In this document: positions 7,126 to 32,297 of the stretch, piece after piece
Position numbering within the stretch: position 1 is the stretch's first letter
How the letters are laid out: each line of letters starts with the position of its first letter
Assembly: GCA_018303105.1 (NCBI GenBank)
Contig: JAGVYU010000018.1
Coordinates: 1-35,879 of the forward strand
DNA from: Candidatus Woesearchaeota archaeon
Lineage (GTDB): Archaea; Nanobdellota; Nanobdellia; Woesearchaeales; JAGVYU01
Reading direction: 5' to 3'
DNA: 35,879 bases
Notes under the pieces: generated by a model
The model's database searches: none
What the model saw: only the letters and a program-made list of their open reading frames with translations
What the model was told of the DNA's origin: nothing
Position numbers and translations under genes: made by a program

Positions 7126-7658
7126 GCGTCAACAACTCCCTGATACTCATCGCTCATCTTACGGAGATGCTGCTGAGCCTCCTCAAGCTCCTGCTGGGCT
7201 GCCATTAGCCGATCGACTGCTTCCTCATATTCTGACAGCTTTGATCCTACCTCATCCTTCGCTCCTTCAGCCGTATTCTGCGCGCGCTTGAGCTGAAGAA
7301 CACATTCCTTTGAAGGGCCAACATTTTGAATAGGCTGTACGAGCTGGATAGCTGGTGGCGTTTGGTTCTTGACAACTGGGCTTACAGGAACTGCCTGCGC
7401 GAGCTGCTGCTGGGGAATGTCTTCAAGAGCGCTTTGCGGCGCGGCATCTTTGACCACGTTGCCCGTGAATGAAGGCTTCCACATGATGAGGGCAGCACCA
7501 AGAAGCAGCGCAAGAAGAATAAGCGCGGGAATCCTCGCTTTTTGAAGAAATGACTTCTCTTCTTCAAAGACTTCATCAGGCTTGAACGCCGGAAGCTTTC
7601 TCTTTGGCTTTTTAATTTCCGGCTTAACGGGATCTGACGCGTATGTTTCCATATCCAT
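7113..7658 (-). CDS. Membrane-anchored coiled-coil protein, 181 aa
   Basis: A bitopic membrane protein of unknown role. It has a basic cytosolic N-terminus (KPEIKKPKRK), one hydrophobic segment (PALILLALLLGAALIMW, about residues 42-58), a Gln/Pro/Val-rich linker and a C-terminal coiled coil (about 118-178) with heptads of Leu, Ala and Glu. The reading frame extends to 7697, but the TATA box TTTATAAA at 7681-7688 lies inside that extension and is 27 bp from ATG 7658, so the shorter leaderless form is preferred. It overlaps the lipoprotein hydrolase by 13 bp. Confidence 0.75.
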   Translation of the reverse strand: MDMETYASDPVKPEIKKPKRKLPAFKPDEVFEEEKSFLQKARIPALILLALLLGAALIMWKPSFTGNVVKDAAPQSALEDIPQQQLAQAVPVSPVVKNQTPPAIQLVQPIQNVGPSKECVLQLKRAQNTAEGAKDEVGSKLSEYEEAVDRLMAAQQELEEAQQHLRKMSDEYQGVVDACVQ

Positions 7659-7680: not shown

Positions 7681-7688
7681 TTTATAAA
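7681..7688 (-). promoter_or_regulatory. TATA box of the coiled-coil/hydrolase operon
   Basis: TTTATAAA, preceded on the coding strand by GCAAATC, 27 bp upstream of ATG 7658. The same extended form AAATCTTTATAAA recurs at 12789 and 16670. Confidence 0.65.
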
Positions 7689-7726: not shown

Positions 7727-7910
7727 CTCTAAACAGAGTTCCCGCACGCCACAACGTCAGCGGCATACGGTAGCTGAAGCCAGCTAGCATCTGCGGGTCT
7801 CGCTACCGCTCGAGCCCACGGAAAAAAAGAGGGGCTAAGGCGCAGGCCCCTCAAACGATCAACCCGTTTGCGGGTTGTGACCGTCGCACCGCCACCGTCG
7901 GCGCTCATAG
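7727..7910. ncRNA. Candidate structured non-coding RNA (unknown family)
   Basis: This stretch between two divergent promoters is about 64 % G+C by my count over 7741-7910, richer than its flanks, and dense in inverted repeats. CTCT/AGAG pairs at 7727-7738; CCCGCA (7741-7746) with TGCGGG (7792-7797); TAGCTG/CAGCTA (7771-7786, loop AAGC); GGG(T)CTCG with CGAGCCC (7795-7817); GAGGGGC with GCCCCTC (7829-7852); CAACCCG with CGGGTTG (7860-7877, loop TTTG); CGCC with GGCG (7890-7903). CGGTAGC (7768-7774) can alternatively pair with GCTACCG (7802-7808), so two competing folds exist. I checked by eye for RNase P, SRP, 5S and tRNA signatures and saw none. The transcribed strand is uncertain; minus is slightly favoured by the T-tract after one hairpin. 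A 59-codon minus-strand frame from ATG 7908 exists but looks like chance. Confidence 0.5.
7822..7852 (-). terminator. Intrinsic-terminator-like hairpin plus T7 (minus strand)
   Basis: On the minus strand GAGGGGC, a ten-base loop and GCCCCTC are followed directly by seven T (complement of A-run 7822-7828). That is the form of a factor-independent terminator. If used, it would end a minus-strand RNA of about 100 nt initiated near 7920. Confidence 0.45.
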
Positions 7911-7942
7911 TGTTGAAAACTGAATATACCATTTCCAATACC

Positions 7943-7950
7943 TTTATATA
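7943..7950. promoter_or_regulatory. TATA box usable in both directions
   Basis: CTTTATATAG at 7942-7951 lies about 31 bp upstream of ATG 7978 on the plus strand. Read on the minus strand it is CTATATAAAG, about 26 bp from a possible start of the structured RNA near 7920. Confidence 0.5.
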
Positions 7951-7977: not shown

Positions 7978-9696
7978 ATGTCTCGTAAAGGTATCAAAGG
8001 GTTTTGGATGCAGCATTGGAGAATCATGCTGCTCGTGATTCTAGCACTCGTTGTCTTAATAACACCTGCAGGATGCGGAGGCTGCGCTTGTGGGGAAGAT
8101 AGCGATGACAAAGGAGATGATGACGAGCCCAGCGAAGATGATCCGAATCCCATAGGACCCGGCGGCCAATTTGGGGGAGGGATCGTTAACAGAACGTTTG
8201 AATGTCCTCCAGGATTATCCGCGGCGGAATGCACGGATTATAAGAACACGATCGGCAGGCCAACCGTAAGCGGTACAAAGACTGTTCTCGGAGCAAACCA
8301 GTTTGTGTATACGTACACGTACTCTATCTTTGCGCTTGCTGACGGAGTGTACAGGGTATATCTCACGGGAACAAATGGTCAGGCAGATCTTGAGGTAGGC
8401 ATACTCGATGGGCTCACAACAAAGGCAAATAGTGGCGATAAGGATGACATCACGGTTGACTATACTGAAGTGTGTGCGTTGTCGACGACAGATGAAGCGC
8501 GAGAGCGCTGCGCTCTGCTCACAACAAGCGTTGCGCCTGTGCTCGCTCAGATCGGTGATAAGGCTGCGAGGCAGAACCAGGAGTTCAGGCTTCAGCTCTC
8601 TGCGGCTGACCCCGACTGTGAATCTGCAAGCTGCATCTCATTCAGCGCGGACAACGCGATATTCGCGGATCATTTTATTCAGGGCAACCTCATCAAATTC
8701 ACACCGTCACAGGAAGATGTTGAAAACTCGCCATATGATATTACGGTTACCGTGACGGATGTCGATGGCCTTACAGATTCAGAACGATTTAGATTTACGA
8801 TTCAGGATGTCAATGATGCTCCGGTTTTAAGCATTCCGGCAATATCGTTTAACCAAGGATCCTCATATAGCTTTTCGCCCAGGGATTACGCGACGGACAT
8901 TGATGGAGATACGCTATCCTTCACTGTTACCGCTGGCACGATGCTCACGGCCAGCTATGACCGCGCAACGAGTACCATCCTTATCAACCCGGCAAACGCA
9001 TATTTCAATGGGCCAAGCGATATTAGAGTTACAGCTAATGATGGCACGACAACGACACCCCAAACGGTCCAGGTTACTGTCGTCGACACCCCTGATGATC
9101 CTTGGATTGAGCCGCCGATTCCTGCGCAGAATCTCGTTGAAGATTTTGCTCCTTACACGTTGGATCTCACGCCCTATGAGAAAGATTTGGAAAGCTCAGG
9201 TCCTGGATTGCAATGGAGCGTTTCAGGATTCGACGCGCAGAAAATCCAGATTACGTTGTTAAACCGGGATCAGGATCAGTTCACCGTTAGGCCTGTGGCA
9301 AATGCGGATGGCACAACATCTGCTTCATTCACGCTTACGGATGAAAGCGGAAGATCAACAAGCCAGGATGTCACATTCACTATTGTGTCTGTTAATGATC
9401 CTCCGAACCTCAAGAATATTCCTGACGTTGTCATGACAAATTCAGAAGTCAAGACGGTCCAGTTGAGCAGTTACATTGAGGACCCCGATACGCCATTAAA
9501 TCAGATCACGGTTGAAGTCGCGAATTATTACGACAGCAATGGAGCGATTCTTGAAGGGCAGATTGTGAATGACGCCGCGAAAACATTGACGTTGCGGCCG
9601 CGCGCAGGATTTATTGGGTTTGTGGCGCTCAATATTGGTGTGAGCGATGGTACGAACATTGACATGGGAGTTCTATTGATAGAGATTAATGGGTAA
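7978..9696 (+). CDS. Secreted/anchored protein with cadherin-like repeat domains
   Basis: A 572-aa cell-surface protein. A basic N-terminus and a hydrophobic segment (about residues 16-33, LLVILALVVLITPAG) are followed by Cys-Gly-Gly-Cys-Ala-Cys, which could include a lipobox-like cysteine or simply follow an uncleaved anchor, then an acidic Asp/Glu linker (38-57). The rest consists of Ig-fold modules of the cadherin-like/tandem-95 type: recurrent DVNDAPVLSIP, SVNDPPNLKNIP, TDIDGDTLSF and YIEDPDTPLNQI signatures mark domain boundaries at about 285, 375 and 480. Such repeats commonly bind Ca2+ and mediate adhesion. The surface protein starting at 34894 has a related domain. Start ATG 7978 with TATA at 7943-7950. 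Confidence 0.85.
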   Translation: MSRKGIKGFWMQHWRIMLLVILALVVLITPAGCGGCACGEDSDDKGDDDEPSEDDPNPIGPGGQFGGGIVNRTFECPPGLSAAECTDYKNTIGRPTVSGTKTVLGANQFVYTYTYSIFALADGVYRVYLTGTNGQADLEVGILDGLTTKANSGDKDDITVDYTEVCALSTTDEARERCALLTTSVAPVLAQIGDKAARQNQEFRLQLSAADPDCESASCISFSADNAIFADHFIQGNLIKFTPSQEDVENSPYDITVTVTDVDGLTDSERFRFTIQDVNDAPVLSIPAISFNQGSSYSFSPRDYATDIDGDTLSFTVTAGTMLTASYDRATSTILINPANAYFNGPSDIRVTANDGTTTTPQTVQVTVVDTPDDPWIEPPIPAQNLVEDFAPYTLDLTPYEKDLESSGPGLQWSVSGFDAQKIQITLLNRDQDQFTVRPVANADGTTSASFTLTDESGRSTSQDVTFTIVSVNDPPNLKNIPDVVMTNSEVKTVQLSSYIEDPDTPLNQITVEVANYYDSNGAILEGQIVNDAAKTLTLRPRAGFIGFVALNIGVSDGTNIDMGVLLIEING

Positions 9697-31763: not shown

Positions 31764-32297
31764 ATGTCTCCCATCATCCTGCCCAACAATTATTATGATT
31801 GCATGGATACTCCTTTTATTTACCTTGCAGGACCAATTAAAAGCGCTCCGTGTTGGCAGGATGAAGCGATTCGTTACATTCTTGCAAACGATTCTGGAGT
31901 CATGATCGCGACTCCCCAACGAATTCTTGCAAACGATTTAACTCAGAACGTTATTCACAGGGGCGAGCCTCGATTTCACCGCCAGCGTGCATGGGAGAGA
32001 CACTATATGGATCTTGCAGCCAAGTCAGGAGCGCTCCTGTTTTGGCTTCCGGAAGAGCACGAGCATGACTGCGAAAAAGCGTATGGAGCAGTGACGCGTT
32101 TTGAATTAGGAATCTGGCTTGAGCGAATCCGCAACGCTCCCGAGCTGCATGTCTGCATCGGAACAGACGGTCGTTTTTCAGAATGGCATACGTATGCCTA
32201 TGATTTTTCTCAGGATGCGCCAAATCTCCGCATCTTTGAAACACTTAAGGCAACGTGCAAGGAAGCTCTTGACATTCTTCACAAAGGGGATATATAG
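31764..32297 (+). CDS. Nucleoside 2-deoxyribosyltransferase-like protein
   Basis: A 177-aa protein of the nucleoside 2-deoxyribosyltransferase/DUF4406-type fold. FIYLAGPIKSAPCWQDEA (residues 18-35) is the typical first strand with the LAGP phosphate- or ribose-binding loop; MDLAAKSGALLFWLPEE and RFELGIWLE (Glu114 in FELG, the position of the catalytic glutamate or its neighbour) follow in order. Members transfer deoxyribose between bases or cleave the N-glycosidic bond of nucleotides. Start ATG 31764, 27 bp from the TATA box. The neighbouring HD, HIT and Nudix genes give this part of the window a nucleotide-metabolism flavour. Confidence 0.82.
   Translation: MSPIILPNNYYDCMDTPFIYLAGPIKSAPCWQDEAIRYILANDSGVMIATPQRILANDLTQNVIHRGEPRFHRQRAWERHYMDLAAKSGALLFWLPEEHEHDCEKAYGAVTRFELGIWLERIRNAPELHVCIGTDGRFSEWHTYAYDFSQDAPNLRIFETLKATCKEALDILHKGDI

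Follow-up and report, generated by a model that had tools for sequence, protein, structure and literature searches.

The window analysed here, i.e., the whole stretch of 35,879 nucleotides, contains a G+C-rich interval at positions 7727–7910, from which the neighbouring genes diverge on both sides, as a preliminary description of this DNA had noted. The left-hand gene probably starts near 7658 and is accompanied by a TATA-like box at 7681–7688 on the minus strand. The right-hand gene (7978–9696) follows a TATA-like box at 7943–7950 on the plus strand, and its product combines a lipoprotein-like start with Ig/cadherin-like domains (Big_9, Cadherin_5). For each neighbour, this is the only TATA-like box predicted. 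Both boxes stand outside of the interval and point away from it, and neither predicted transcript therefore contains the element.

The interval has a G+C content of 61.4%, compared to a window mean of 46%, and about 0.06% of all 184-bp windows reach this value; the described richness in G+C was thus recovered, whereas the figure of about 64% was too high. Six exact inverted repeats of ≥ 6 bp with a loop of ≤ 60 nt were counted, whereas dinucleotide shuffles averaged 1.7 (none of 300 reached six). Three repeats were ≥ 7 bp long, compared to 0.4 after shuffling (a number reached by about 1% of shuffles). RNA folding energies corresponded to z-values of −2.75 for the plus and −2.76 for the minus strand. 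The inverted repeats listed in the preliminary description are present, including GAGGGGC/GCCCCTC at 7829–7835/7846–7852, followed by T7 on the minus strand, and the pairing arms CGGTAGC/GCTACCG at 7768–7774/7802–7808. Neither small reading frame in the interval matched Pfam, in line with the view that no convincing gene overlaps it. Rfam returned no match in the window at the gathering score and, at relaxed thresholds, a best score of 18 bits against a cut-off of 45, which we took as chance; no tRNA or tmRNA was found in the window. Elsewhere in the window, an imperfect 30-bp palindrome (32018–32047) formed its sole BLAST self-match.

The interval is a patchwork of dispersed Woesearchaeales repeats and not a lone new RNA gene. 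When 99 genomes including its own (G000) were searched, its parts matched seven places in G000, with different parts matching different places. The idea of a functional RNA specific to this locus could therefore not be maintained. The outermost parts belong to a repeat that we term W1. Its outer end A (7742–7770, plus strand; CCGCACGCCACAACGTCAGCGGCATACGG) shares 85–86% identity over 22–27 nt with the A ends of two full copies in the same genome (L008 and L010), and has the expected order and orientation relative to outer end C (7880–7904, plus strand; ACCGTCGCACCGCCACCGTCGGCGC). The C-end pattern GTCGCACCGCCNNNGTCGGCGC occurs in six copies in G000, compared to none for the reversed control, and in 17 of the 353 genomes of the order. 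An A+T-rich stretch at 7905–7933 on the plus strand (AACTGAATAT) is the probable right margin of W1, with an uncertain exact end; the match to L008 extends to about 7966 (76% over 91 nt), and the flank of L010 is similar.

Two other dispersed repeats, W3 and W4, make up the interior. The W3 piece (7772–7820, minus strand) consists of two hairpins, GTGGGCTCGAGCGGTAGCGAGACCCGC plus GCTAGCTGGCTTCAGCTA, and its 49-nt match reaches 90% identity to L005 (E = 2.4e-13) and 78% to L013, with folds that are retained through paired changes in the homologous copies. Both of these matches adjoin tRNA genes of G000. At L005 (1347–1571) and L013 (980–1180), a tRNA gene is followed by W3 and then by another, incomplete copy of a tRNA 3′ end, an arrangement reminiscent of a short element having inserted into tRNA genes at their 3′ ends. 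The adjacent hairpin at 7829–7852, in which 10 nt separate GAGGGGC from GCCCCTC, occupies the position of a G+C-rich hairpin in other W4 copies, as seen for L235 and L237, where a GTGGGG..CCCCAC hairpin precedes the W4 core on its upstream side. In the window, this core lies at 7853–7877 on the plus strand (AAACGATCAACCCGTTTGCGGGTTG), and 27 nt (7851–7877) are identical in L012. The W4 sequence AACGATCAACCCNTTTNNGGGTTG was found four times each in G000 and G010, with G-C, C-G, or T-A as the closing pair.

Full copies of W1 comprise, in this order, end A, a variable hairpin, a variable stem, centre B, a variable stem, a variable hairpin, and end C. Intact copies are built from one or two three-way-junction units of ~100 nt, and the two units of a doublet read outward from a common centre of ~19 nt. 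In each unit, B pairs with C to form P1, a long closing stem; P2 is an arm that has an apical helix and either tandem G.A or Watson–Crick pairs, and P3 is a hairpin that changes rapidly and often carries a C-GNA-G loop. Alignment A1, covering the B-to-C half of 27 copies, revealed 62 double-change cells compared to 16.6 after shuffling (0 of 500 shuffles as high), with double changes in 14 of 30 pairs. A covariance model built from A1 (R1), and trained on right-hand units only, also detected, in 30 of 53 loci, a left-hand unit that lies on the other strand and diverges in every case; 20 of these 30 doublets shared 19 nt at the centre. Across 83 units, 463 double changes were counted compared to 112 after shuffling, in an alignment that was fitted to R1 and hence leans towards the model, unlike A1; sliding the partners destroyed the signal. 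Most stem sequences turn over while the pairing stays. The call for a non-coding structured element without an Rfam match was thus borne out, and the covariation suggested as a check is very strong for the W1 family as a whole. A search with R1 yielded no match above noise in the window copy, because centre B and both arms are gone.

At two neighbouring positions in P2, 46 units have G.A and A.G, and nearly all of the remaining units have Watson–Crick pairs. Counted on the strand of the respective unit, G.T occurred 77 times versus 18 times for A.C, and G.A 133 times versus 12 times for C.T; P3 triloops follow GNA in 34 of 53 cases and TNC in 0 of 53. These asymmetries show that, within each unit, it is the fold of a single strand that is conserved, namely of the one read outwards from the centre. 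In a doublet, the folding strand of one unit is consequently opposite to that of the other. Two further observations concern sequences within W1: W1 loops at L003:1282, L050:1175, and L059:1270 contain a further, nested repeat (GGTTACGCYC...GRCAYGCAA...GGRGCATRAARCYCC-like), and about four tandem hairpins of similar build and different sequences lie inside a P2 arm at L184 (G207:C47).

R1 units were identified in 90 of the 353 Woesearchaeales genomes, with copy numbers per genome being lower bounds, as at most 11 matches were scored in any one genome. Their distribution across the order is patchy, and where contigs with W1 are named, the assemblies are those of Woesearchaeota or Nanoarchaeota, in keeping with Woesearchaeales as the order. 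Copies are intergenic and often near promoters, the flanking genes vary in kind, and they are arranged in every relative direction (17 >E>, 17 <E<, 11 <E>, and 6 >E<, based on rough gene calls). In 11 repeat-bearing loci, Rfam reported tRNAs only at the gathering score. Matches to the C-end pattern in bacterial GTDB contigs are not accompanied by the remaining parts of the element and appear to be coincidental, lying in G+C-rich coding DNA, and viral contigs contained no occurrence of two exact patterns. We found no description of W1 in the open-access literature searched; an earlier account elsewhere is possible.

Two genomes of one genus (G051 and G257), 85–93% identical in the compared flanks, allowed for a comparison of orthologous sites. 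At L003, an element of about 370 bp lies directly downstream of an apparent tRNA gene in G051 and is absent in G257. The insert is flanked by the direct repeat GCCTTTTTTTTA/GCCATTTTTTA, where G257 reads GCCTGTTTTTTA; this repeat is imperfect (10–12 bp), and a repeat resembling a target duplication was seen at this one site only. At L007, G257 likewise lacks the element. As the sister genome lacks W1 at two sites, W1 inserts or is lost; we infer insertion, and either absence could be a loss. At a further intergenic site, both genomes carry W1 variants with unrelated P1 stems (L274 at G051:C5, a one-unit variant, and L058 at G257:C6), which points to local replacement in addition to jumping. L045 was rejected as an empty site, since the sister G051 has two genes there. 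These genes, at L285 (G051:C17:16600-20300) opposite the W1-bearing L045 of G257, appear Lrp-type regulator-like and radical SAM-like by reading of the sequence.

A Y1 transposase (RAYT) was considered as the mobiliser of W1, and this was not supported, as Y1 neither tracks nor flanks the repeat. None of 30 Y1 loci had W1 modules nearby. Y1 genes were present in 10 of 17 pattern-positive genomes compared to 5 of 13 others, several of these others also have R1 matches, and several W1 genomes have no Y1 match.

W1 is a repeat whose fold is kept on a defined strand and which is present or absent at orthologous sites, and the interval in the window is likely a remnant of it, i.e., of a non-autonomous mobile palindromic repeat that is REPIN/BIME-like in logic and whose folded strand is moved in trans, with W3 and W4 pieces having replaced the interior. 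The folded single strand of W1 would be the substrate that is recognised and moved by an enzyme acting in trans, and it would more likely be DNA exposed during replication than RNA. The copy in the window lacks centre B and both units. It is probably a decayed remnant that was invaded anew, with its interior replaced in this way, and it is probably inactive.

The same fold could have been selected as RNA. In this case, the repeats would be transcribed, W1 would represent functional small RNAs, or RNA components of mobile elements, and the window copy would be a divergent member of the family. The very strong covariation and the tolerance of G.U on one strand per unit would fit this explanation, as would the fact that tandem G.A is stable in RNA too. 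We nevertheless regard it as rather unlikely, as the correct strands of the two doublet units are opposite, the neighbouring genes vary in kind and direction, and Rfam holds no match. Folded DNA is favoured over RNA for the following reasons: in any one transcript, one of the two units of a doublet would have the wrong sense; C-GNA-G loops form very stable minihairpins as DNA; and the window element contains no TATA-like box. Thus, W1 probably acts as folded single-stranded DNA rather than RNA. A static palindrome, bound by a protein or the nucleoid or insulating divergent promoters, and spread by recombination rather than transposition, is an unlikely alternative in our view: the intergenic positions, often close to promoters, and the replacement of one variant by another at one site in the sister species are compatible with it, but the presence and absence at orthologous sites and the patchy distribution argue against it.

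Two readings centre on the window locus itself. The preliminary description had raised the possibility of a switch-like leader with two competing folds, and a cis-regulatory leader or riboswitch of a flanking gene would account for the many hairpins and the low folding energy on both strands. Yet the predicted TATA-like boxes separate the element from both genes and point away from it, and other copies of the repeat adjoin unrelated genes. Moreover, the proposed alternative pairing of 7768–7774 with 7802–7808 is lost in both homologous copies, L005 and L013, because the left arm CGGTAGC reads CACCAGC and GGACAGC there, respectively. As this pairing is not conserved, the riboswitch with an alternative fold was rejected, and a leader function in general appears very unlikely. 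A short protein-coding gene is more improbable still, to the point of being nearly negligible: a 69-codon frame is open on the minus strand (7729–7938), but it has no Pfam match, it crosses the joints between unrelated repeat pieces, and copies of the repeats differ by hairpin-length indels.

Proceeding from the mobile-repeat interpretation, one may tentatively ask for more, namely a Woesearchaeales mobile system composed of W1 and the nested W3/W4, in which the folded strand and not the sequence is recognised by a novel enzyme, so that stems could turn over completely and hairpins be swapped in while mobility is kept. This broader scheme is possible, though we hold it to be doubtful; if true, it would amount to a fold-recognised mobile system driven by an enzyme yet to be described. 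Few mobile repeats have been described for DPANN archaea, whose genomes are small. W1 seems to be a widespread, hitherto undescribed family with an unusually elaborate fold, conserved by structure and not by sequence. Selection on single-stranded DNA folds could be studied with this family as a test case, and the family is a likely cause of contig breaks. It also serves as a warning that strong covariation alone does not mean a functional RNA gene.

Among known systems, REPINs/BIMEs, which consist of paired inverted REP sequences (PMC3116915, PMC2817692, PMC3733652) and for which mobility via a folded single strand and an enzyme in trans has likewise been proposed (PMC3116915, PMC2817692), are similar to W1 in several respects. 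Both are short non-coding intergenic palindromes, occurring singly or as inverted pairs in many copies, with a strand-specific fold and mobility without a gene of their own; for W1, the dispersed intergenic palindromes amount to 30 inverted pairs in 53 loci and occur in 90 of 353 genomes. However, a W1 unit is a three-way junction of ~100 nt, whereas a REP is a hairpin of 20–40 nt. Unlike in REPINs/BIMEs, the units of W1 share a 19-nt centre, most stem sequences turn over with pairing kept, and the host is archaeal. The unpaired GTAG/CGTC tag of REP sequences is lacking in W1, where AGG before P3 and CGTC after P3 merely resemble tags, and the flanking of RAYT (Y1) genes by repeats has no counterpart among the 30 Y1 loci.

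MITEs (PMC10969869) are likewise short, non-coding, dispersed, and absent at some orthologous sites. MITEs are defined by target-site duplications with empty sites and by terminal inverted repeats shared with an autonomous transposon. The two empty sites of W1, the short direct repeat around one insertion (imperfect, 10–12 bp), and the A+T-rich inverted ends of some copies may correspond to these features. In contrast to MITEs, no parent transposon with W1 ends was found, with Y1 being the only candidate looked at, and W1 has an elaborate conserved internal fold and ends that are not clean terminal inverted repeats. Palindromic repeats of organelles, e.g., of Volvox (PMC2670323), are also dispersed, intergenic, and thought to be selfish. 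They differ in their organellar host and were set beside W1 by description only. To our knowledge, they have no conserved three-way-junction core.

Integron attC sites are recombination sites recognised as folded single strands, in which the inner sequence varies while the fold stays. W1 is alike in keeping its fold while the inner sequence varies, but differs from attC in that, by eye, it is without RYYYAAC/GTTRRRY ends and no gene-cassette array was seen in the window. As a separate observation, the W4 core sits in the loop of an attC-like inverted repeat, GGTTAACAAAGTCCTATC...GATAGGACAAAGCGTTAACC, at L002, L006, and L009 (contigs C14, C4, and C3 of G010), at or near contig ends. This structure may represent an integron-type array, or else a repeat at which the assembly breaks.
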